Part shown: in pieces, positions 12,859 to 23,754 of the stretch
Position numbering within the stretch: position 1 is the first letter of the stretch
How the letters are laid out: every line of letters begins with the position of its first letter
From: Phycisphaeraceae bacterium D3-23
Lineage (GTDB): Bacteria; Planctomycetota; Phycisphaerae; Phycisphaerales; Phycisphaeraceae
Length of the DNA stretch: 64,000 nt
Reading direction: 5' to 3'
Assembly: GCA_039555135.1 (NCBI GenBank)
Contig: CP114179.1
Coordinates: 186,001 to 250,000, forward strand
Notes under the pieces: generated by a model
The model's database searches: none
Told to the model about the DNA's origin: nothing
The model's input: only the letters and a program-made list of their open reading frames with translations
Made by a program: the position numbers and the translations under genes

Positions 12859-12957
12859 TCACAAACGGCAGGCCGACCCCGCGTAACCCACGCGACATAC
12901 GGGCGTCTTGTCCATGGCTGGGTGGAGCCGGCCAACCTCACGACAAGGACTTTCCCG

Positions 12958-14334
12958 ATGTTTGAACCCAGCTCCCCCCGGATGCCCGCCCATCTTACGC
13001 GCCGCCAGGTGATCCAGGCCGGCCTCGCCGCCGCCGCAACGATCCCCATGCTCGGCCCGCGCATCACGCACGGCCGGCAGGCCAACGAAACCCTCAACCT
13101 CGCCGCTGTCGGCGTCGGCGGCAAGGGCTGGTCCGACCTCATGCCCTCCAGCCAGGGCGAGAACGTCCGCGTCATTGCGCTCTGCGATGTCGACAGAAAC
13201 AATCTCGGCAACGCCGCCAACCGCTTCGAAGACGCCGGGACCTACACCGACTACCGCGTCATGCTCGACGAGATGGGCAATGACATCGACGCCCTGCTCG
13301 TCTCGACCCCCGACCATATGCACGGCCCGATCGCGATCGCCGCGATGCAGCTGGGTATCCACGTCCACGTGCAAAAACCGCTGGCACACAACATCGCCGA
13401 GCTGCGCACGATGATGCAGTTGGCTGAGTCGAACCACCTCGTCACCCAGATGGGCACGCAGATCCACAGCGACCAGGCCTACCGTACCGGCGCGGCGATG
13501 ATCCGCGAAGGCGCGATCGGCAAGATCAGCGAGGCCCACCTCTGGGTCAGCCGATCATGGGGCGGCCCCGCAGAAGGCCGACCCAACCGACGCGACGAAG
13601 TCCCCGCCCACCTCGACTGGGAAGAGTGGCTCGGCGTCGCGCCGGCACGACCCTACGTCAACGGGCTCTACCACCCGGGCAACTGGCGCGGCTGGATCGA
13701 TTTCGGCTCGGGCACGCTTGGCGACATGGGCTGCCACATCTTCGACCCCGTCTTCTCCTCTATCGATATCGGCACACCCACCAGCGTCATCTCCCGCGGC
13801 CCGCAACACCACCGCGAGACCTTCGCGCTCGACAGCGATATCAGCTACCAGTTCGAAGGCACGCAATACACGACCGACGAGCTGTTCTTCCGCTGGACCG
13901 ATGGCAATCGTGGCAGCCGCCCTGACCGCAATAAAGCCCAACTGCCTGAGGGCGTCAATCTCCCCGCCGCCGGCATGTTCCTGGTCGGTGAAGAAGGCGT
14001 CATGCTCCTCCCCCACTGGGCCATGCCGACGTTCTATAAGGATGGCGAACAGCTCGACATCGAAGTCGAGTCGCGCGGCAGCAACAACCACTACACCGAG
14101 TTCACCGACGCATGCCGCGGCGTCGGCGAAACCTCGACGCCGTTCTCATACTCGGGCCGTGTGACCGAGGCCGTGCTCGTCGGTACGATCGCCGGCCGGT
14201 TCAAGGACCGCCAGCTCGCGTGGGACTCCGAAAACCTCCGCTTCGACCACGACGCCGCGACGGCCGTCGTCCACCGCGAGTACGCCGACGGCCGAGAGCC
14301 CGAGGGCCTCGCGGGCCGCGCCGGTCAGAACTAA
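12958..14334 (+). CDS. Tat-exported Gfo/Idh/MocA-family oxidoreductase
   Basis: The 458-residue protein begins with a twin-arginine signal (LTRRQVIQAGLAAAATIPML) and continues with a Rossmann domain (AAVGVGGKGWSDL). The usual EKP is replaced by QKP in HVQKPLAHN. The C-terminal domain has a FGSGTLGDMGCHIFDP segment typical of planctomycete members. Export with a folded, NAD-bound cofactor implies periplasmic sugar oxidation or a self-recycling cofactor. I chose the ATG at 12958 because AAGGA precedes it; an ATG 36 nt upstream is less likely. The double DUF1080 protein follows on the same strand, suggesting one extracytoplasmic route. Confidence 0.9.
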   Translation: MFEPSSPRMPAHLTRRQVIQAGLAAAATIPMLGPRITHGRQANETLNLAAVGVGGKGWSDLMPSSQGENVRVIALCDVDRNNLGNAANRFEDAGTYTDYRVMLDEMGNDIDALLVSTPDHMHGPIAIAAMQLGIHVHVQKPLAHNIAELRTMMQLAESNHLVTQMGTQIHSDQAYRTGAAMIREGAIGKISEAHLWVSRSWGGPAEGRPNRRDEVPAHLDWEEWLGVAPARPYVNGLYHPGNWRGWIDFGSGTLGDMGCHIFDPVFSSIDIGTPTSVISRGPQHHRETFALDSDISYQFEGTQYTTDELFFRWTDGNRGSRPDRNKAQLPEGVNLPAAGMFLVGEEGVMLLPHWAMPTFYKDGEQLDIEVESRGSNNHYTEFTDACRGVGETSTPFSYSGRVTEAVLVGTIAGRFKDRQLAWDSENLRFDHDAATAVVHREYADGREPEGLAGRAGQN

Positions 14335-14367
14335 CGTGTGACAAGAGATTTGCCTGACATGTTCGAA

Positions 14368-14422
14368 TGAAGCCCACCCATTGCATGGGTGGGACCACAC
14401 GGATGAAATCCGTGGGCTTCGC
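14368..14422. repeat. BIME-like double hairpin, family A copy 1
   Basis: Two short hairpins lie side by side: CCCACCCAT/ATGGGTGGG around TGC, then an ACGGAT/ATCCGT hairpin around GAA. Outer GAAGCCCAC and GTGGGCTTC can also pair. A nearly identical copy is at 42309-42361 and a half copy at 38098-38127. It occupies the gap between the Tat-oxidoreductase and the DUF1080 gene. Confidence 0.85.
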
Positions 14423-14480
14423 TACACCAACCCCAACACCGCATATCAAGCGGCACCAACTCCACCCCCCGAATACCACC

Positions 14481-15797
14481 ATGCTCAACCTCAAGAAAAC
14501 CCTCCCCGCCCTCCTCGTCGCGTCGTTCTGCGTCGCCTTCGGTAACACCGCCGCTGCTCAAGAAAACAACACCCCGCCCGAGGGATTCACCGCCCTCTTC
14601 GACGGCCAAAACATCGACGACGGCTGGACCGGCGGCACGACCCGCAACCCCAAAGAGATCGACGCCCTCCCCGATGACCAGCGTGCCCAGTGGTTTGAAC
14701 AGCAAAACCGCGGCGTCGCCCAGCACTGGTCCGTCGACAACGGCGAGCTCGTCTCCGACGGCCACGAGCCCCACCTGGTGACCGTCAAGGACTACGGCGA
14801 CTTCGAGCTCTACGTCGACTACAAGATCCAGCCCGGCGGCGACTCAGGCATCTACCTCCGCGGCTGCCCCCAGGTCCAGATCTGGGACCCCGCACACGTC
14901 CCCGCCCACCGCAACGGCTCCAACCGCGGCTCGGGCGGGCTGTGGAACAACAACATCGACGCCAACAAGTGGCCCAGCGAAGTCGCCGACAACCCCGCCG
15001 GCCAGTGGAACCGCATGCACATCAAGATGGTCGGCCAGTACGTCACCGTCACCCTCAACGGCACCACCATCGTCGAAGACACCCCCCTCGAAAACTACTA
15101 CAACCGCTCCATCCCCGTCTTCATGACCGGCCCGATCCACCTCCAGACCCACGGCAGCGAGACCCGCTTCCGCAACGTCTTCGTCCGCGAGATCGGCGCC
15201 GAAGAAGCCAACGAATACCTCGCCGGCCTGACCGACGACGAAGACACCTTCACCCCCCTCTTCAACGGCGAAGACTTCGACGGCTGGATGGGCGCAACCG
15301 AAAACTACGAGGTCGTCGACGGCGCGATCCAGTGCAAGGCCGGCCACGGCGGCAACCTGCTCACCGAAGAGACCTACGACAACTTCACCGTCCGCCTCGA
15401 GTTTAAGCTCCCTCCCGGCGGCAACAACGGGCTGGCCATCCGCACCCCCAGTGCTAACGTTGACGCTGCCCACCAGGCCATGGAACTCCAGGTCCTCGAC
15501 AACACCGCCGACAAGTACGCCACCCTCGCCCCCTACCAGTACCACGGCAGCGCCTACACCATCGCCCCCGCCCACCGCGGCTACCTCCGACCCGTCGGCC
15601 AGTGGAACTACCAGGAAGTCACCGTCAACGGCGACCACGTCACCGTCACCCTCAACGGCTACGTCATCCTCGACACCCATACGAAGGAAGCCGCCCCCGA
15701 CCACCCCTTCAACTCACGCGACGAAGGCCACTTCGGCTTCTGCGGCCACAACGACCCCGTCCAGTTCCGAAACATCCGCATCCGCGAGATCGAGTAG
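14481..15797 (+). CDS. Secreted double 3-keto-disaccharide hydrolase-domain (DUF1080) protein
   Basis: The 438-residue protein has a signal peptide (LPALLVASFCVAFGNTAAAQ) and two consecutive DUF1080 domains. The first (about residues 30-235) opens with GFTALFDGQNIDDGW and contains GDSGIYLRG. The second (about 245-437) opens with FTPLFNGEDFDGW and contains GNNGLAIRT. Family members hydrolyse 3-keto-glycosides or bind carbohydrate in a jelly-roll fold. A single-domain protein is usual, so the tandem form is notable. The start is the ATG just before the signal peptide. A strong terminator follows at 15874-15911. Together with the upstream exported oxidoreductase it suggests oxidise-then-cleave glycoside breakdown outside the cytoplasm. 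Confidence 0.88.
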   Translation: MLNLKKTLPALLVASFCVAFGNTAAAQENNTPPEGFTALFDGQNIDDGWTGGTTRNPKEIDALPDDQRAQWFEQQNRGVAQHWSVDNGELVSDGHEPHLVTVKDYGDFELYVDYKIQPGGDSGIYLRGCPQVQIWDPAHVPAHRNGSNRGSGGLWNNNIDANKWPSEVADNPAGQWNRMHIKMVGQYVTVTLNGTTIVEDTPLENYYNRSIPVFMTGPIHLQTHGSETRFRNVFVREIGAEEANEYLAGLTDDEDTFTPLFNGEDFDGWMGATENYEVVDGAIQCKAGHGGNLLTEETYDNFTVRLEFKLPPGGNNGLAIRTPSANVDAAHQAMELQVLDNTADKYATLAPYQYHGSAYTIAPAHRGYLRPVGQWNYQEVTVNGDHVTVTLNGYVILDTHTKEAAPDHPFNSRDEGHFGFCGHNDPVQFRNIRIREIE

Positions 15798-17101: not shown

Positions 17102-17542
17102 CTAGGTCTTCTTCGCCTTCTTCCCGGCGGTTTTCTTCTTCGCCGCCTCCTTCTTGACGGCCTTTTTCTTCGACGCCTTGGCGGGCTCCGAGTTCCCTGC
17201 CTGCTTCTTGGGCCCGGCGCTGAGTGCGTAGCTCTCGTCCAGCCACTTGCCCCACCGTGTCTTGGGCATCGGCTTGTCGGCCGAGAACCGGGCCGTCACC
17301 CAGCCGATGTTGCCCGCCTGGTAGTCCTCGGGGTGCTTCTCTGCCAGCTTCCGGGCTTCGGGCATCGACTTGTCGAGCTTGAACATCGCCTTGTACCGCC
17401 CGCCCTGCTCGCCGATGAACAAGAACGCCTTCTTGTTCGCCTTGAAGGAGCTCTGTGTGCAGGCCGTGCCTTCATCGACGCCGGGGTACTGGCTCGCCTT
17501 CAAACGGATCGGCTCGGTGGGGTCCTTGGGTTTCGTCGGCAT
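17102..17542 (-). CDS. YjbR/MmcQ-like protein with Lys-rich tail
   Basis: The 146-residue protein has a YjbR-like alpha/beta core (about residues 15-105: GTACTQSSFKANKKAFLFIG, YKAMFKLD, NIGWVTARF, KWLDESYAL). A tail of about 40 residues follows, made almost entirely of Lys and Ala with Thr/Glu, like histone-type DNA-binding tails. The tail suggests nucleic-acid binding; family function is not established. AGGAG precedes the ATG. It is separated from the pseudopilin gene by a minus-strand terminator, so it has its own promoter. Confidence 0.75.
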   Translation of the reverse strand: MPTKPKDPTEPIRLKASQYPGVDEGTACTQSSFKANKKAFLFIGEQGGRYKAMFKLDKSMPEARKLAEKHPEDYQAGNIGWVTARFSADKPMPKTRWGKWLDESYALSAGPKKQAGNSEPAKASKKKAVKKEAAKKKTAGKKAKKT

Positions 17543-17640
17543 ATGTAGCTCCTAAGCGGAGAGGCTTGGACGGACCAGGCCGGATGGGCCTGCGTACAAC
17601 ACACCTTGCCCGCAGCGAGCTCCGATTGCAAGGGTGATCC

Positions 17641-17675
17641 AAAAACAAGACGCTCACCATCGCGGGTGAGCGTCT
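17641..17675 (-). terminator. Rho-independent terminator after the pseudopilin gene
   Basis: Read on the minus strand, AGACGCTCACC pairs with GGTGAGCGTCT around a 5-nt loop and is followed by TTGTTTTT. It closes the minus-strand pseudopilin gene. Confidence 0.88.
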
Positions 17676-17709
17676 CGAAGCGGGTCTGGATTCTGTGAGT
17701 CAGCGTCGG

Positions 17710-18501
17710 CTAACGTTTAGGCATGTAGACCACCCAGCCCAGGCCGCTGTGGAACGACGGGAGTCGGACCAGCTCGTCGTAGCCGGTGTGGTTGTAGCTG
17801 ATGTTGCCGTAGGTCTCGACCGAGCCGTCGGTGTGGAGGTAGTTCTTATCGATGTTGCCCCGGCCCGTGCCGTCCCAGTTGTTCCATCGGGTGAGGGTCA
17901 GGTTGGGCGAGCCGTCCTCGGGGAAGGAGATCGCTTCGCCGTTGGCGAAGGGGTGCGGGCCTTCGGAGTAGGACGCGCCGTAGTTGATGGTGTCGTAGTC
18001 CATCGCGAGGATGTCGAATTCGTCGTCACGGTAGGTCATGACGTCGTCCTGCTTTTCGAGTTTCTGGTGGTTGTAGGGGCCAAAGTCGTCCCATTTCCAG
18101 TTCCAGTAGAGCCCGTAGGTCGTTTCGATCAGCGGTGTGGTGGCCTGGTTGTAGTCGAGTTGGCGTGGGGCGAGTGGGCACTGGACGAGATTCAGGTTGG
18201 CGTAGTCTTCGAACGTGTCGCGCAGGTCGAACCACTCGCCGGTGGTGCCGTCGAAGGCGCGGATGTCGGTGGGCTTCCCGGCGGGCGAGGCAGGCGGGAA
18301 GATGTCTTTGTTGTCGTTGGCGAAGGCCATCGCGCCGATGCCGACCTGGTGGAGGTTACTCCTGCACTGGGTCATCTTCGAGGCGTACTTGGCCTTGCCC
18401 AGGGCGGGCAGGAGGATGGCGATCAGCAGCGCAATGATCGAGATCACCACGAGCAGCTCGATCAGGGTGAATCCGTTGCGACGGGTGTGAGGGGTGTACA
18501 T
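17710..18501 (-). CDS. Prepilin-type (type II secretion pseudopilin-like) protein
   Basis: The 263-residue protein has the prepilin motif RNGFTLIELLVVISIIALL: cleavage is expected between Gly10 and Phe11, with Glu at mature position 5. The hydrophobic helix continues to about residue 34. The C-terminal part is a Tyr/Asp-rich globular domain of the H-X9-DG-like planctomycete kind, ending with HSGLGWVVYMPKR. These proteins form pseudopili or surface structures after PilD processing; no secretion machinery gene is in the window. GGAG precedes the ATG. It follows three PEP-CTERM genes on the same strand. Confidence 0.88.
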   Translation of the reverse strand: MYTPHTRRNGFTLIELLVVISIIALLIAILLPALGKAKYASKMTQCRSNLHQVGIGAMAFANDNKDIFPPASPAGKPTDIRAFDGTTGEWFDLRDTFEDYANLNLVQCPLAPRQLDYNQATTPLIETTYGLYWNWKWDDFGPYNHQKLEKQDDVMTYRDDEFDILAMDYDTINYGASYSEGPHPFANGEAISFPEDGSPNLTLTRWNNWDGTGRGNIDKNYLHTDGSVETYGNISYNHTGYDELVRLPSFHSGLGWVVYMPKR

Positions 18502-18608
18502 GGCGGACTCCAGAACAGAGGGGGAGGGTGAAAATGTGGGCAGTGCCCACGCACGGGAAAATGGCGCCCGGCCACGAAGCCGGGCACCACTGAAGGAGGA
18601 AGGCAGTG

Positions 18609-19259
18609 TTAGCGACGGCGACGCAGGAGCGCGAGGCCACCGAGGCCCAGCAGCGCGAGCGAGCCGGGCTCGGGAACCACATCGAAGCGGACTTCGGACA
18701 GGCCGGTGTGTGAGGCGCTGCCGTGGTTGGTGTCGGCCTCGAGGCGGACATACTGGATGCCGTTGGCCAGGCCCGCGACATTGACGACTTGAGCGGTTTC
18801 AGACGTCGTGCCGCTCGCCTGCGCGAGCGTTCCATCGGTGACGATCTGGGTGTAGGTGACGTTGTCCGAGGAAACGAACATGTCGTACTGGTTGAAGCCG
18901 CGGTCGGTTTCCGGGCCACCGCTGAAGGTAGCATTGAAGTTCCAGATCAGGACGGCGTTGAGGTCAACAATCGAACCCAGGTTGAAGGTGATCGATGCGT
19001 CGTCGGGGACCGAGCCCACCGCATCGTGCCAGAAGAAGCCCGAGCCGCCGCCTGCCGGGAAGCCGGTGTCGTGGGTCCAGTTGAGTGGGTTGGGGTCGGA
19101 CGTGTCCAGGCCCGTGCCGTCGATGGTGTGGTCGGGGCTGCGGTCGGGCCCGTCAAACGACGACGCCGCCTCGATCGTCGCGCCAACCACGGCTGCCGAG
19201 GCGCCTGTTGCTAAAAGCGCGCCTGCGCCCAGAGCCAGAAGGAAGTGTTTAGTCTGCAT
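18609..19259 (-). CDS. PEP-CTERM sorted secreted protein (discoidin-like)
   Basis: The 216-residue protein has an N-terminal signal peptide (MQTKHFLLALGAGALLATG) and a C-terminal sorting tail: VPEP, a Leu/Gly helix, and a terminal RRRR. This is the substrate signature of the exosortase/EpsH system. The middle resembles an F5/8-type (discoidin) carbohydrate-binding fold, with NWTHDTGFPAGGGSGFFW and a final YVRLEADTN strand. I chose the ATG at 19259 before the signal peptide. No exosortase gene is in the window. Exported, it would be attached to or released at the cell surface. Confidence 0.85.
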   Translation of the reverse strand: MQTKHFLLALGAGALLATGASAAVVGATIEAASSFDGPDRSPDHTIDGTGLDTSDPNPLNWTHDTGFPAGGGSGFFWHDAVGSVPDDASITFNLGSIVDLNAVLIWNFNATFSGGPETDRGFNQYDMFVSSDNVTYTQIVTDGTLAQASGTTSETAQVVNVAGLANGIQYVRLEADTNHGSASHTGLSEVRFDVVPEPGSLALLGLGGLALLRRRR

Positions 19260-19380
19260 AACTCGATTCTCCGAAAGAGGGTGAATGGCCGGAACAGCCG
19301 GCCCAAGAAATGCCAGATGCGAACAACGCATCCGCACTCGGCACCGGGCATTGACGCCGGCACCGGGAAAGCAGGCGGAG

Positions 19381-20067
19381 TCAGCGACGGCGACGCATGA
19401 ACGCCAGGCCGCCGAGTCCGAGCAGCGCGAGTGAGCCGGGCTCGGGGATGGGCGTGCCGTTGACCTCGCCGCCAAGGATCGTGTCGCCGGGTGCGAAGAC
19501 GCCGGTGCCGTTGTCGTAGAGCTGAACCTCGGCGATCTGCATGCTGTTGGCCGCGGCAGTCACATCGGGGAAGAACACGATGTAGCTCATGTAGGAATCC
19601 GAGTTAGCGAAGTTCACGGTCTGCGAGAAGGTCAGATCGACGGTGTTGCGTTCGATGGGCAGAGCCAGGTCGCCGGTCGCGATCTGGGTGAAGGTCGCCA
19701 GGTCGAGCTGTGTTTCGGCACCGGTCAGGGCGGTGTTGGAGCCCCAGATCTCGAAGTTCGACGGGTCGCGGGCGGGCTCGTCGTTGGCGGTCCAGATCTC
19801 CATCGAGGTGACGATTGAAGCGCCGCTGCTCGGCGTGACGGCGATGCCCTTGGCGAACGTAAAGTTTGTGTCGAAGTTGAGGTACTTGCTGACGGTGCCG
19901 TCAATGGCGTTCGCGGGGACTTCGCCCCCGGGCCACTGGTTGTTGCTGAAACCCTCGGAGCCGACATCGAAGGTCTGCTGGCCGAGCGCGGGGGCTGCGC
20001 AAACAGCAGCGACGACGAGCGCCGACATGCCACGGGCTGCCAGACGGAGTGGGTTAGATTTCATCAT
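19381..20067 (-). CDS. PEP-CTERM sorted secreted protein
   Basis: The protein (about 228 residues from the ATG at 20067; a second ATG follows immediately) has a signal peptide around GMSALVVAAVCAAPALG and ends with the PEP-CTERM tail IPEPGSLALLGLGGLAFMRRRR. The mature part resembles a beta-sandwich discoidin-like domain: YLNFDTNFTFAKGIAV, EIWTANDEPARDPSNFEIWG and YMSYIVFFPDV are its landmarks. The last 20 or so codons are nearly identical in DNA to those of the neighbouring PEP-CTERM genes. The function beyond surface exposure is unknown. Confidence 0.83.
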   Translation of the reverse strand: MMKSNPLRLAARGMSALVVAAVCAAPALGQQTFDVGSEGFSNNQWPGGEVPANAIDGTVSKYLNFDTNFTFAKGIAVTPSSGASIVTSMEIWTANDEPARDPSNFEIWGSNTALTGAETQLDLATFTQIATGDLALPIERNTVDLTFSQTVNFANSDSYMSYIVFFPDVTAAANSMQIAEVQLYDNGTGVFAPGDTILGGEVNGTPIPEPGSLALLGLGGLAFMRRRR

Positions 20068-20171
20068 GTTGAAGATACTTTCGTGGTTGACCGGCATTTG
20101 CCGGGGGTCGCAATCGAAACGGGTAGAGAAGGAGAACGGAGGAAGGTCGCGATGCGACCCGAAACGAAACG

Positions 20172-20987
20172 TTATCGCCGACGACGAAGCAGCGCGAGGC
20201 CGCCGAGTCCGAGCAGCGCGAGCGAGCCGGGCTCGGGGACGGTGTCGATATTGGCACCCAGGATGGCATAGGCCGCGCCGCCGGAGTGGTCCCCGTTCTG
20301 GAACGAGATCGAAACCACATCCTGACCGGCAAAGCCGCTGAGGTCGACCGTCTCCTCGGTCAGGGTCAGTGTCGCATCGGGGTTGGCGGTATCCACGCCG
20401 GCGGTGCCTGCGAAAGCGCCGATGTTGGGCTGGCCATCAAACGGTCCGAACCAGTCGGGCGCGGTCAGGGTCGCTGTCGTGCTGCCGCCGCCCTGGAAGC
20501 CGATGACAACGTCGAAGGTGCCGCCACCGTTGCTGGCCTGGAATAGGAAGCTGGCACTGGCACCCGCGCCAAGCGTCACTGGGGCACCAAGGGTCGTCGT
20601 CTGTGGGCCGGTCTGATCGACGACCGGCAACCAGTTGGGCTGGACGCCGATGTCGCCAGAGGGGTTTGCGCCCGGGCTCGCCTCGAACGTCCAGATCCCA
20701 CCGCTGGTTTGGTTGCGGTTGCCCAAGTGGACGATATCCAAGTCGCCTGCGGTACCGACCAGGTTGTAGTTGTTCAGGACCGCGTGGCTGGGGACGCCCG
20801 AAGAGAAGTCCAGACCACGGTCGGAGATCGACCGATAGCCGTTGGGATCGTCGGGAATACCGGCTTCGTTCGCATGGACGATGCCGTTGAAGTTGTAGTC
20901 CAGTGCGACCTGCGTGATGGCGGCGTTAGCCCCGAAAGTGCAGACGGCGGCGGACAATAGAGCGGCGGTGGTTGTTCGAATCATCAT
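20172..20987 (-). CDS. PEP-CTERM sorted secreted protein
   Basis: The 271-residue protein has a signal peptide (MMIRTTTAALLSAAVCTFG) and a terminal PEP-CTERM tail ending in RRRR. The middle is Gly/Asn/Thr-rich with beta-type repeats, including a GFQGGGSTTATLTAPDWFG segment, and matches no family I can name with confidence. GGAGG precedes the tandem ATGs. It follows the FecR/LamG gene by 59 nt on the same strand and may belong to the same transcription unit. Confidence 0.83.
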   Translation of the reverse strand: MMIRTTTAALLSAAVCTFGANAAITQVALDYNFNGIVHANEAGIPDDPNGYRSISDRGLDFSSGVPSHAVLNNYNLVGTAGDLDIVHLGNRNQTSGGIWTFEASPGANPSGDIGVQPNWLPVVDQTGPQTTTLGAPVTLGAGASASFLFQASNGGGTFDVVIGFQGGGSTTATLTAPDWFGPFDGQPNIGAFAGTAGVDTANPDATLTLTEETVDLSGFAGQDVVSISFQNGDHSGGAAYAILGANIDTVPEPGSLALLGLGGLALLRRRR

Positions 20988-21046
20988 GATAATCCTCCGT
21001 GGATTGGGGAAAGGGACCTGAATCCGCAGCCAACAAGGCCGCGATA

Positions 21047-22963
21047 CTATTGCTGATCGGAACGCCCGATCTGATACATGTCGTTGATTTCTTGGCGTGT
21101 CATCGCGCGGTCGAGGATGACGAGCTCGTCGATATCGCCCTGGAAGGCCTCGACCCGGCTGGTGCCGTTGAAGTTGGGCATGTACGGGTCAGTGCCCAGG
21201 AGCAGCGCGGCCGAGGGACGCGTCACCGCCAGTGGGCCCATCGAAGGCGATCGGCTGACCTGTGCGCCATCGAGGAAGAATGTCGCGCCGGATGGGTCAT
21301 AGACGACCACGGCGAGGTGCCAGTCATCCGCAGATACGGTGCGGGGGTCGGAGTACGTAAAGCTGTCGTTAGCATTTTCCACTGCTAACTCATTGCCTGT
21401 CCCGAACTGCAAGCGATTTGCGTAGGGGTCGCCACGCAGGAACAGAGAGAACTGGAACGACATATGCCGCACCGGTGTGTCGCGCAGCGAGACCAGCGTA
21501 CCCCCGCCGGAGGTGAATCTGCTCGCCGGGGTCCTGACCCAGACCGCGATCGTGAGCGTGTCGCCGAGGACCCGGCCGCCGAAGCCCTCGACCACGACAG
21601 TCCTTGCACGCGACTGGTCGACGACGCCGAATCGCAGCGCGCCTTTGTCGGGGAACCGGCCCTCAACCCATCGCGGCATCGTCATCGCGTTGTTGCCTTC
21701 GCCCAGCGTGCCGTCGAGTTCGCCGGCGGTGCGCATGGCACGGTTGAGCAGCTCGCGGGGGGCTTCGTCTTGGTGGTCGAAGGTGTAATAGGCGATTACG
21801 CCCGGGTCACGCCGGAGCTCGTAGCTATGGGCGAGCCAGCGACTGTAGGCGTCTCCGTCGACCGCAGCGGCACGGACCTCAAACTCTTCGCCAGAGACAA
21901 AACCGCTCGCGTCAGCGCGGACGACCCGGACGCTGCCCGCCTGGGCGGACGCACTGGAGCCCGGCCGGACCTGCGTAATAGAGCCCTCTAAGCTGCTGGA
22001 CAGCTCACGCGTATCGACCGTGAGCTCGCCGCCAAAAGCAACCGCCTGCGAGCCGGACCGGGGGTGGACGTAGACCCCGAAGTCGGCCTGTTGATTCGTC
22101 ACCACCATGTCCGGCGTATCGACACGGAAGCCCCCCGATTGCGCCGACGTCGAGCCGGACAGCCGGCCCGACACCAGCCGGAGACCACGCGGCCCGGTCG
22201 GCTCGATTGTCACCGGGCCTTCGAGGATCACCGTCGTCCCGTCCCGGAACACGACCTGAGCCAAGCCCGCCTCGAGCGAGACCGGCTGGCCCGATTTGAA
22301 GTTGAGTTCCTCGGGAATGTCGCTTCCCCAGCGTGCATCGATGCTGCCGCGGACGTAGGCCACGGTGTCGGCTTGTTCAAGCGGGTCGGCGGGCTGATTC
22401 TGCCGATCGGCACGGGGCTGTGGCTGGCTTGAATTCGTCTCAAGCGCGATCCCGACCCATGCCGCCAGGAATAGCGCCGCGGCCAGTGAGCCCCAGACCG
22501 CCCACGGTGGTGCGTGCCACGGGTGAGCCGAACGCTTGGCCTGCAGTGCATCGGCGCGGCGCTGGGCGAGCTGCAGTTCCTTGGAACGCGAGGCATCCAG
22601 CTCGCGCTGTGCACGCTCCTCGACTTCTTTCAGCCGGCGTGCTCGCAGCGCTTCTTCAATCAGCGACGCCATCACCGCACCGCTGGCGTCGACCTCTTCG
22701 CCCGCCTGCGCCTCCACATCGTCCGCAGCCAGCAGCACGACGTCCGGCGAGGGTGCCAGCAGCCGGTGCGTGATCTGGTCTTGCAGACAAACCTCGACAT
22801 AAACCCGTCGAAGCGCGGGCTCATCACGCAGCAAACCGTCCAGCACCGCACAGGCATCCTCGGTGAGCGTACCATCCAGGTGGGCCTCAACCATCAGCCG
22901 AAACTGCCGCTCATCGCGCGGGCTATTGGGTTTGTCTTGGCGGCGACCGCGGGAGTCAGGCAT
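21047..22963 (-). CDS. FecR/LamG-domain single-pass membrane protein, anti-sigma-like
   Basis: The 638-residue protein has a basic, helical cytoplasmic N-terminus (about residues 1-155), one membrane segment (AVWGSLAAALFLAAWVGIAL, about 157-176), a FecR-like domain (GTTVILEGPVTIEP, FRVDTPDMVVTNQQADFGVY), and a C-terminal LamG jelly roll (GVIAYYTFDHQDEA to the end). This layout is the usual planctomycete partner of an ECF-like sigma factor: signal sensed outside, sigma bound inside. Its start overlaps the sigma gene by 8 nt, supporting translational coupling. It lacks the classical zinc anti-sigma HxxxCxxC motif. Confidence 0.85.
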   Translation of the reverse strand: MPDSRGRRQDKPNSPRDERQFRLMVEAHLDGTLTEDACAVLDGLLRDEPALRRVYVEVCLQDQITHRLLAPSPDVVLLAADDVEAQAGEEVDASGAVMASLIEEALRARRLKEVEERAQRELDASRSKELQLAQRRADALQAKRSAHPWHAPPWAVWGSLAAALFLAAWVGIALETNSSQPQPRADRQNQPADPLEQADTVAYVRGSIDARWGSDIPEELNFKSGQPVSLEAGLAQVVFRDGTTVILEGPVTIEPTGPRGLRLVSGRLSGSTSAQSGGFRVDTPDMVVTNQQADFGVYVHPRSGSQAVAFGGELTVDTRELSSSLEGSITQVRPGSSASAQAGSVRVVRADASGFVSGEEFEVRAAAVDGDAYSRWLAHSYELRRDPGVIAYYTFDHQDEAPRELLNRAMRTAGELDGTLGEGNNAMTMPRWVEGRFPDKGALRFGVVDQSRARTVVVEGFGGRVLGDTLTIAVWVRTPASRFTSGGGTLVSLRDTPVRHMSFQFSLFLRGDPYANRLQFGTGNELAVENANDSFTYSDPRTVSADDWHLAVVVYDPSGATFFLDGAQVSRSPSMGPLAVTRPSAALLLGTDPYMPNFNGTSRVEAFQGDIDELVILDRAMTRQEINDMYQIGRSDQQ

Positions 22964-23483
22964 CCTGGTTCACCCCCATCTTCCCGGTCTCGACGCACTT
23001 TTTCAGCGCCACGCGCAGACGCGACAGGGCCATATACACCGCCTCGGTCTTTCGGCCGATGCGCTCGGCGATTGCCTTGCCCGACAGCCCTTCGCGGTAG
23101 CGCATCTGGATCAGACGGCGGCCCGACTCGGGCAAACGGTCGACGCAATACTCCAGCTTGCGCACCTGCTCGGCGAGATCGACCTGCTCGGCCTGGTCCC
23201 ACTCGTTCTCCAAGAGGTCCAGCGTCTGCTGGCTCAGGGAGTGGACCCGGTTGGCCTTCTTCTGCGCGGCGCTAAGCGCCTTGTGCCGAGCGGTCCGCCG
23301 AAGCCAATGGCTCAGGTGCATTTCGGATTCGAGCTCGGCCCGCGCCTGCAAGGCAAGCACCGAGACGTCCTGAAACACATCCTCGGCCAGGTGCTGGTTC
23401 GCGACGATCGAGCGGATGTACGCCAACAGCCGAGGCTGCTCTCGCAACAAAACACGCATCAGGTCGGCTTCGGCAACGGGCAT
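22956..23483 (-). CDS. ECF-like RNA polymerase sigma factor
   Basis: The 175-residue sigma factor has region 2 (about residues 10-85; AEDVFQDVSVLALQAR, HLSHWLRRTARHKALS) and region 4 (about 110-165; LPESGRRLIQMRYREGLSGKAIAERIGRKTEAVYMALSRLR). It resembles the Rhodopirellula/Verrucomicrobium-type sigma-70 family. It overlaps the downstream FecR/LamG protein, its probable regulator, and lies upstream of the three PEP-CTERM genes and the pseudopilin. They are candidate targets, though this is inference from position. Confidence 0.9.
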   Translation of the reverse strand: MPVAEADLMRVLLREQPRLLAYIRSIVANQHLAEDVFQDVSVLALQARAELESEMHLSHWLRRTARHKALSAAQKKANRVHSLSQQTLDLLENEWDQAEQVDLAEQVRKLEYCVDRLPESGRRLIQMRYREGLSGKAIAERIGRKTEAVYMALSRLRVALKKCVETGKMGVNQDA

Positions 23484-23562
23484 CGGCGGGCATCCGGCGA
23501 AAAAAAGAGACGGGACTACCCATCTATACCGGCACCGCTGGAAAACCTAACCTACTTTTTAC

Positions 23563-23596
23563 AAAAAAAAAAAAAGCCCCGGCGGTTGCCGGGGCT
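23563..23596 (-). terminator. Rho-independent terminator after tRNA-Asp
   Basis: Read on the minus strand, AGCCCCGGC pairs with GCCGGGGCT around a 4-nt loop and runs into thirteen T. It ends 18 nt past the tRNA 3' end. Confidence 0.9.
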
Positions 23597-23613
23597 TCTT
23601 GAGGGGGTCCAAG

Positions 23614-23687
23614 CGAGGGCGACGGGATTCGAACCCGCAACCTCCGGCGTGACAGGCCGGTGCTCTAACCAGTTGAGCTACGCCCCC
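23614..23687 (-). tRNA. tRNA-Asp (GTC)
   Basis: The 74-nt sequence folds as a cloverleaf. The acceptor stem is GGGGGCG/CGCCCTC with a G-T pair, and the discriminator is G. The D arm contains AACTGGTTAGA, the anticodon loop is CTGTCAC with anticodon GTC, and the T loop is TTCGAAT. CCA is not encoded. A perfect TTGACA promoter lies upstream and a hairpin terminator downstream, so it is an isolated single-tRNA unit. Confidence 0.96.
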
Positions 23688-23754
23688 TGCAGGGGCACTT
23701 GGTGGGCCGTTGGTGGGCCGCTTGCCTCGGCGGCCAAGGGCTGCCGAGCGGGGT

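Follow-up and report, generated by a model that had tools for sequence, protein, structure and literature searches.

A sigma factor, PEP-CTERM and prepilin gene block in Phycisphaeraceae bacterium D3-23, one of sixteen similar cassettes with indications of exchange between their halves

A stretch of 64,000 nucleotides (nt) of Phycisphaeraceae bacterium D3-23 (contig CP114179.1, positions 186,001 to 250,000), here called the window, was analyzed; it is part of a 4.62 Mb genome contained in one contig. The subject is a block of six genes, all on the minus strand and running from position 23483 of the window down to 17710, which encode an extracytoplasmic function (ECF) sigma factor, a FecR/LamG protein, three PEP-CTERM proteins and a prepilin. 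Sixteen sigma genes of this kind, each adjoining a FecR-type gene, are present in the genome, and comparison with relatives indicates that two halves of the cassettes, one with the sigma factor and one with the sensor and the exported proteins, have been recombined. With moderate confidence, the block is read as one transcription unit which would sense at the cell surface and answer by displaying proteins there, and as one of 16 recombining circuits. The features of the locus, in order of transcription of the block, are the following:

23614-23687: tRNA gene, upstream of the block
23571..23600, minus strand: terminator-like hairpin (13 pairs, 8 of them GC) with a long T run, closing the upstream tRNA gene; upstream border of the unit
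23523..23552, minus strand: putative promoter-like site before the sigma gene (GGTTAGGTTT, 12 nt, GGTATAGA), kept in cassette L107 of the related genome G002
22956..23483, minus strand: ECF sigma factor, 175 amino acids (Pfam and NCBIfam profiles)
21047..22963, minus strand: anti-sigma factor, 638 amino acids (Pfam and predicted structure)
20172..20987, minus strand: PEP-CTERM protein 1, 271 amino acids (PEP-CTERM tail)
19381..20067, minus strand: PEP-CTERM protein 2, 228 amino acids (PEP-CTERM tail); taken from an earlier ATG, the open reading frame would begin at 20097
18609..19259, minus strand: PEP-CTERM protein 3, 216 amino acids (PEP-CTERM tail), with a weak F5/8 type C (discoidin) match
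18546..18601, minus strand: RNA element between PEP-CTERM protein 3 and the prepilin (CTCCTTC at 18592-18598, 14-pair hairpin at 18560-18591, short T run)
17710..18501, minus strand: prepilin, 263 amino acids (N-terminal methylation motif and helix)
17646..17677, minus strand: terminator-like hairpin (13 pairs, 8 of them GC) with a T run, 3' of the prepilin; downstream border of the unit

Because the gaps downstream of the regulator gene measure only 59 to 121 nt, the six genes look like one unit, and the block from sigma factor to prepilin looks like a single operon. The overlap of 8 nt between the sigma gene and the FecR/LamG gene, reported by an earlier reading of the block from its letters (the sequence-only reading), is confirmed by the coordinates; the three PEP-CTERM genes and the pseudopilin, placed by the same reading downstream on the same strand, are all supported by profile matches above cut-off. 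A terminator scan of the region returned 6 terminator-like sites, against a mean of 3.9 in shuffled sequences, and the two border hairpins have the longest stems.

The first gene encodes an ECF sigma factor: regions 2 and 4 are both matched above the Pfam cut-offs (Sigma70_r2, 37.8 bits, cut-off 24; Sigma70_r4_2, 31.9 bits, cut-off 25.7), and TIGR02937 scores 69.7 bits (cut-off 42.9). For TIGR02989, the Rhodopirellula/Verrucomicrobium family, the score of 123.5 bits lies about 1 bit under the cut-off of 124.55, which is passed by 12 of the 16 sigma genes of the genome.

The regulator matches Laminin_G_3 with 59.7 bits (cut-off 27.6); its FecR match, at 23.4 bits, falls just under the Pfam cut-off of 24, and a FecR match at E 0.01 is found in 59 of 68 relatives. 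In the predicted structure (predicted local distance difference test score, pLDDT, 86.9), cytoplasmic helices (residues 15-85 and 94-144) are followed by a membrane helix (153-175), a FecR beta domain (about 200-349) and a lectin-fold domain (about 386-633). As modelled, N-terminal helices, membrane helix and outer FecR domain, in a gene adjoining the sigma gene, fit the layout of class I (FecR-type) anti-sigma factors, and the protein is a putative binder and inhibitor of the sigma factor. For the outer domain, profile match and model agree in predicting a concanavalin-like (LamG) lectin fold. Among solved structures it aligns best with domain 4 of the arabinanase AbnA (5ho2; VIA-align Z 19.9, root mean square deviation 2.8 A, 202 residues aligned, 17% identity): since other lectin-fold chains follow from Z 19.0 downwards, the alignment gives the fold and no function. 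The top rows of a Foldseek search include sialidases and neurotoxin binding domains, a common jelly-roll fold, and nothing was concluded from them on function.

All three PEP-CTERM tails score above the cut-off of 20.7 bits (28.0, 29.7 and 27.3 bits), and three exosortases (PF09721) are matched above cut-off in the genome, as expected for PEP-CTERM/exosortase sorting. Apart from the tail, no Pfam match above cut-off was obtained for proteins 1 and 2, and sequence searches of the PDB with proteins 2 and 3 gave nothing significant. The sequence-only reading had proposed glycan-binding folds for both the regulator and the exported proteins: the lectin fold of the regulator stands, while the discoidin-like fold is reduced to one exported protein, PEP-CTERM protein 3, with a sub-threshold score (F5_F8_type_C, 25.6 bits, cut-off 28.2). 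Protein 1 has no relative among the cassettes compared; protein 2 is related to a PEP-CTERM protein adjoining cassette L110 of genome G001, and protein 3 to proteins of cassettes L079 and L107.

The last gene encodes a type IV prepilin or pseudopilin, as judged from its cleavage/methylation motif (N_methyl PF07963, 33.9 bits, cut-off 21.2; TIGR02532, 30.5 bits, cut-off 16.3) and from the helix behind it: in the model (pLDDT 76.3), a long helix (residues 13-63) precedes a beta-rich C-terminal part. The DUF1559 (SBP_bac_10) profile gives 13.9 bits, under its cut-off of 23.3, and Foldseek places a known pilin first for the model, with E 0.5 and 59 columns aligned. The genome contains 14 matches to the ATPase family of type II secretion systems and pili. 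Both kinds of exported protein are abundant: 68 prepilin matches and at least 131 PEP-CTERM matches (150 of 191 candidates scored) are present in the genome, forming 27 PEP-CTERM/prepilin pairs within 350 nt, some of them away from any such sigma gene. The prepilins belong mostly to one family (47 out of 59 in one group), and 84 proteins labelled as PEP fall into 41 groups, the largest of 23.

The 16 sigma genes score at least 110 bits to TIGR02989, the next one in the genome scoring 80. In 14 of the 16 cassettes the gene after FecR encodes a PEP-CTERM protein (binomial p about 3e-19, given at least 131 such matches among an assumed 3900 or so genes), and in 13 a PEP-CTERM gene is then followed by a prepilin gene. 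Two cassettes are arranged differently: in L088 the PEP-CTERM/prepilin pair lies beyond two opposite genes, in L077 the prepilin gene precedes the sigma gene. Relatives were compared through 19 stretches for the 26 sigma matches listed in G001, 17 for 23 in G002, 20 for 53 in G003, and 13 from the other five genomes; gene calls and PEP or prepilin labels in these stretches were made by our own script, whose pattern labelled a sulfatase of L081 as PEP. In four genomes of the genus a PEP-CTERM gene directly follows FecR in 53 of 67 cassettes, and both PEP-CTERM and prepilin genes are present in 48; of the 19 without both, 8 end at a contig or stretch end. The sequence-only reading had asked for the same gene order in relatives, and the order does recur, in three congeners among others. 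As called by the script, which began the FecR gene of the window too late, the sigma gene overlaps its FecR gene in 59 of 71 cassettes. A search with the regulator in 101 relatives gave matches in 26. Single sigma/FecR pairs are found in G004, G018, G022 and G047: one of the four is cut, and both genes are present in one (G018).

The gene order is also found in another family of the same taxonomic order (G059 and G071), where, by reading of the listing, a sorting-tail protein and a prepilin follow 14 of 20 sigma/FecR pairs. The tail in these cassettes (L164-L181) is mostly VPTPAALPAGL...RRR instead of PEP-CTERM, and resembles the VPLPA-CTERM motif. Hairpins are present before their prepilin genes, several with a GAAA loop, and lack CTCCTT.

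Nine of the 16 cassettes carry enzyme-type genes downstream on the same strand (20 chosen proteins scanned): sulfatases in L081, L085, L087 (twice) and L091; endonuclease/phosphatase-family or metallophosphoesterase genes in L077, L084 and L086; a sulfotransferase in L077; PSCyt/PSD1 and DUF1501 genes in L076 and L080. In Rhodopirellula, such sigma genes are linked with PSCyt/PSD1 proteins. In L077 (1908000-1922500 of the genome) a TPR-sulfotransferase gene and genes for three consecutive PEP-CTERM-tailed proteins of the endonuclease/exonuclease/phosphatase family then follow.

Comparison of the parts of the cassettes indicates a mosaic ancestry, in which a head (sigma factor and cytoplasmic anti-sigma domain) and a tail (lectin sensor, PEP-CTERM protein and prepilin) appear to have been recombined between cassettes. 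The BLAST comparison covers 47 complete cassettes; L140 and L143, where the called FecR is short and far from the sigma gene, were excluded from pair and nearest-cassette tests. Within the head, sigma factor and N-terminal part of the anti-sigma factor have the same closest cassette in 15 cases. Within the tail, the number is 20 for sensor and PEP-CTERM protein and 14 both for sensor and prepilin and for PEP-CTERM protein and prepilin. Across the boundary, the sigma factor agrees with the sensor in 5 cases, with the prepilin in 4 and with the PEP-CTERM protein in 6. When the closest cassette is taken from trees, agreement is found 12 times for sigma factor and N-terminal part, 15 for sensor and prepilin, 7 for sigma factor and sensor and 4 for sigma factor and prepilin, with chance means of about 1 and maxima of 5-9 in permutations.

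The trees, redone with FastTree, hold 39 of the 71 cassettes (30 for the prepilin), with bootstrap values for the sigma tree only. The pairs L089+L107, L079+L095, L090+L108 and L082+L112 have support of 100 in the sigma tree; in the sensor tree the supported pairs are L079+L107 (0.985), L080+L100 (0.987), L082+L103 (0.979) and L086+L099 (0.996). Four other pairs (L084+L096, L087+L101, L077+L094, L088+L105) agree in every tree holding them. By approximately unbiased (AU) tests, the sensor data reject all five head pairs, and the sigma data three of the five tail pairs.

Single cases illustrate the pattern. Between the cassette of the window and L107, which occupies the corresponding locus of G002, the sigma factors share 67% identity, and the neighbouring genes are 83, 85 and 87% identical. 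L107 in turn resembles cassette L079 of the genome of the window in sensor (53%) and prepilin (74%), with sigma factors only 26% identical; L079 and L095 share similar sigma factors (67%) and have unlike sensors (31%). At the L090/L108 locus, flanks (84, 75, 92 and 69%) and sigma factors (59%) correspond, but sensors are 30% and prepilins 26% identical, and the tail of L108 matches L078, a cassette located elsewhere in the genome of the window (PEP-CTERM 80%, prepilin 53%): here an exchange of head and tail is apparently visible, once, at the same chromosomal locus. Identity profiles put the change within the anti-sigma gene, starting near the membrane helix. In G003 (L129, L134, L144) the FecR domain is up to 76-78% identical across cassettes differing in sensors or sigma factors, which suggests gene conversion of this domain.

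A second shared trait is an RNA element located 3' of the last PEP-CTERM stop codon, in which CTCCTTC is followed by a strong hairpin and this by a short T run. It marks the PEP-CTERM/prepilin junction. In the stretches from the genome of the window, 14 of 15 PEP-to-prepilin junctions have CTCCTT no more than 45 nt from the stop, as have 11 of 13 in G002, all 8 in G001 and 10 of 15 in G003; among control junctions from the genome of the window the counts are 1 of 10 for PEP-to-PEP, 1 of 80 for other-to-other, and 1 of 118 for junctions after other genes, where the next gene is of another kind or off-strand. Covariation is strong. In an ungapped alignment of ten sequences 96.9% of the pair cells are paired, sliding lowers this to 34-45%, and 10 of 13 pairs show two-sided changes, the choice of sequences for equal hairpin length leaning towards pairing; in 49 distinct sequences 96.4% are paired and two-sided changes occur in 13 of 13 pairs, in an alignment fitted to, and so leaning towards, the model. 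A count in fixed register gives 72% canonical cells, against 41-55% when slid, and RNAalifold on a first plain MAFFT alignment found no pairs. For the window copy the folding energy is -30.7 kcal/mol (z -4.06). A scan of 17600-23700 against Rfam 15 gave no match at 18546-18601 up to E 1.

The stretches contain 50 model matches: 36 are located at junctions from a PEP-CTERM to a prepilin gene, and three (L093, L097, L106) between FecR and prepilin genes with no called PEP-CTERM gene. Over the whole genome the refined model gives at least 23 matches at E 0.01, 20 of them after a PEP-CTERM gene and 18 between PEP-CTERM and prepilin, so that at least 18 of the 27 close PEP-CTERM/prepilin junctions hold the element; these counts are lower bounds, as 56 of 8305 first-look candidates were scored (150 of 10120 with an earlier model). 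At least 28 matches are found in G001, 14 in G002 and 5 in G003, with none in G004 among the matches listed. A match at E 0.01 is present in at least 50 of 101 genomes; beyond the genus they are scarce and for the most part weak, and among eight such loci viewed there is one behind a PEP-CTERM gene and none ahead of a prepilin.

The element is likeliest a leaky terminator or an mRNA-stabilising hairpin. That it is a plain intrinsic terminator, the prepilin gene having its own promoter behind the hairpin, is quite possible, though at less than an even chance: a GC-rich hairpin followed by T is what such a terminator would show, most of the outside-genus matches viewed are strong terminators of the plain kind, CTCCT preceding the stem in several, and the gap from hairpin to prepilin exceeds 80 nt in some cassettes. 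Yet the window copy has a short T run, and its hairpin is missing from the sites of the terminator scan; by the distribution of CTCCTT over junctions, terminators in these stretches are not usually built this way; and the regions upstream of 53 prepilin genes have no promoter motif in common. Seven cassettes (L076, L078, L080, L082, L090, L103, L104) have, as seen by eye, a second inverted repeat, of the type CGATCGTCCGC...GCGGGCGGTCG, behind the CTCCTTC hairpin and before the prepilin gene; it is absent in the window.

The shared motif that the sequence-only reading had proposed to look for upstream of the exported genes was not found: in 57 cassettes, a search upstream of the first PEP-CTERM gene gave only the Shine-Dalgarno site, and one before 53 prepilin genes only the end of the PEP-CTERM gene and the CTCCTTC following its stop. 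A sigma-70 promoter scan of the block found no site. No promoter common to the exported genes emerged; a single autoregulated promoter before the sigma gene would be the simplest reading. A promoter-like candidate site is present there: GGTTAGGTTT and GGTATAGA are kept, with their 12-nt spacing, at the corresponding locus of G002. No second copy of this site is present in the genome at up to 3 mismatches, where a backwards control pattern gives 1 match. A two-box expectation maximisation search for -35 and -10 elements over 71 sigma upstream sequences reached a log-likelihood of 86.8, against 46-54 in four mononucleotide shuffles; the pattern is diffuse and A/T-rich, and was not accepted as a promoter.

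In the proposed mechanism, the ECF sigma factor would be kept at the membrane by the anti-sigma factor, whose outer FecR and lectin-fold domains would receive the signal, in all likelihood a polysaccharide. Once released, the sigma factor would switch the unit on from the promoter before the sigma gene, making it self-amplifying. Exosortase would sort the PEP-CTERM products to the surface, the prepilin would serve a pilus or a type II-like fibre, and the CUCCUUC-hairpin, probably as a leaky terminator or by stabilising mRNA, would hold prepilin output below PEP-CTERM output. The genome would run 16 such circuits in parallel, recombined in evolution, with head (probably including the promoter) and tail as separate units joined inside the anti-sigma gene. 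A polysaccharide as the signal, suggested by the lectin fold and by sulfatases and esterases in sister cassettes, is plausible.

A wider interpretation is offered more tentatively than this scheme. The cassettes may form a combinatorial sense-and-display repertoire, where sensor, surface protein and prepilin together would be a specificity unit, swapped between sigma heads inside the anti-sigma gene and so giving new circuits without cross-talk; a dedicated, undescribed RNA element would set the ratio of display protein to prepilin, and the whole might be a pilus-based Phycisphaerae counterpart of the polysaccharide loci of Bacteroidota.

Several results weigh against these interpretations. 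The sigma data do not reject the tail pairs L080+L100 (p 0.22) and L086+L099 (p 0.40) in the AU tests, and the tested pairs were chosen after the trees had been seen. Matrix correlations over all distances are mostly null, so that the mosaic signal sits in the close pairs; the exceptions are sigma factor and FecR N-terminal part, in G003 (r 0.67, p 0.003) and, weakly, over all cassettes (r 0.14, p 0.02). A Pfam lectin domain is present in 32 of 68 regulators, and other sensors may thus have other C-terminal parts. Cassette L083 has neither a PEP-CTERM nor a prepilin gene, and the cassette of the window has no degradative enzyme gene. The target promoter of the sigma factor is putative, and the 71 sigma upstream regions show no convincing common motif. 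Similarity of the upstream DNA is raised in 18 pairs that resemble each other in the sigma factor (mean score 10.94, p 0.002, the rest scoring 8.23), and slightly raised also in 18 tail-only pairs (8.92, p 0.03): since the two kinds of pair do not differ significantly (p 0.16), it is likely, at most, that the promoter belongs to the head half.

Two other explanations were considered. The lectin domain might watch the PEP-CTERM protein or prepilin of the cell itself, the sigma factor then tracking the state of surface layer or fibre, as feedback or envelope-stress control. The sensor C-terminal part shares its closest cassette more often with the PEP-CTERM protein and the prepilin than with the sigma factor, trees agree for several pairs, and the cassette of the window lacks an enzyme gene, all of which such sensing would explain; linkage alone would also yield co-inheritance of neighbours, and the sulfatases, esterases or similar enzymes of nine cassettes fit a polymer from outside as the signal. 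This explanation is rather unlikely. Alternatively, an ordinary sigma/anti-sigma pair may have come to lie beside surface-protein genes by duplication history, the order having no functional meaning. The abundance of PEP-CTERM and prepilin genes, and the pairs found away from any such sigma gene, are what this would predict. It is nevertheless improbable, as PEP-CTERM genes follow FecR in most cassettes of genome and genus although they fall into 41 sequence groups, the order is kept where tails have been replaced, and it recurs in another family with another sorting tail. The surface-polysaccharide sensing and display system put forward by the sequence-only reading is retained in part: order recurrence, lectin fold, enzyme genes, and a tendency of the sensor to be inherited with PEP-CTERM protein and prepilin speak for it; a promoter motif shared by the exported genes is not supported, and glycan binding by the exported proteins has one sub-threshold match behind it.

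Known systems resemble the block in parts. As in FecI/FecR signalling (PMC7406223, in excerpt), the sigma gene adjoins that of a membrane-bound class I anti-sigma factor with N-terminal helices, one membrane helix and an outer FecR domain; unlike in Fec-type signalling (FecA-FecR-FecI), no TonB-dependent receptor is found among the six genes and four neighbours (Pfam, NCBIfam), and FecR is fused to a lectin-fold domain. The same excerpt reports a striking conservation, within groups, of the domains fused to class I anti-sigma domains: the exchange proposed here, by which similar heads bear different outer parts, departs from it. PEP-CTERM/exosortase sorting is shared with the systems of PMC1569441, which in the part consulted describes operons mostly of one gene and, for Proteobacteria, a site of the sigma-54 type; the PEP-CTERM genes of the present units come after an ECF sigma gene and have a prepilin as partner. 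Polysaccharide utilisation loci of Bacteroidota are similar in outline, with a regulator beside surface proteins, many parallel loci and sulfatases in some; they differ by the exosortase tail and prepilin partner of the present cassettes, where no SusC/SusD-type gene was found among the genes scanned. Because the scans returned neither a TonB-dependent receptor nor a SusC/D-type gene, the block was classified neither as a Fec system nor as a Bacteroidota locus. Pilin-like 'fishing rods' for polysaccharide uptake have been hypothesized in planctomycetes (Planctopirus, Gemmata; PMC12078418, in excerpt): dedicated catchers of this type would fit the pairing with a prepilin, though the species are others and the fibre of the present prepilin is hypothetical. 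No description of the cassette, of the head/tail exchange or of the RNA element was found in open-licence literature, subscription papers lying outside the search.

The 16 sigma/anti-sigma circuits of the genome, running in parallel, are a natural collection, whose input and output halves have apparently been swapped within the genus. Through this set, both polysaccharide sensing and capture by planctomycetes without the systems known from Bacteroidota and the origin of new sigma circuits without cross-talk become testable, and the RNA element provides a simple handle on the balance between surface protein and pilin.

As for the surroundings, a YjbR-family gene (17102-17542, minus strand) follows the cassette in the window and precedes it at the same locus of G002; the next two neighbours are on the same side of the cassette in both. 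A GFO/IDH-type oxidoreductase-like gene and a 3-keto-disaccharide hydrolase gene (277.9 bits) adjoin the cassette at 12922-15797 on the plus strand, and their G002 orthologues, 85 and 87% identical, are still beside it.

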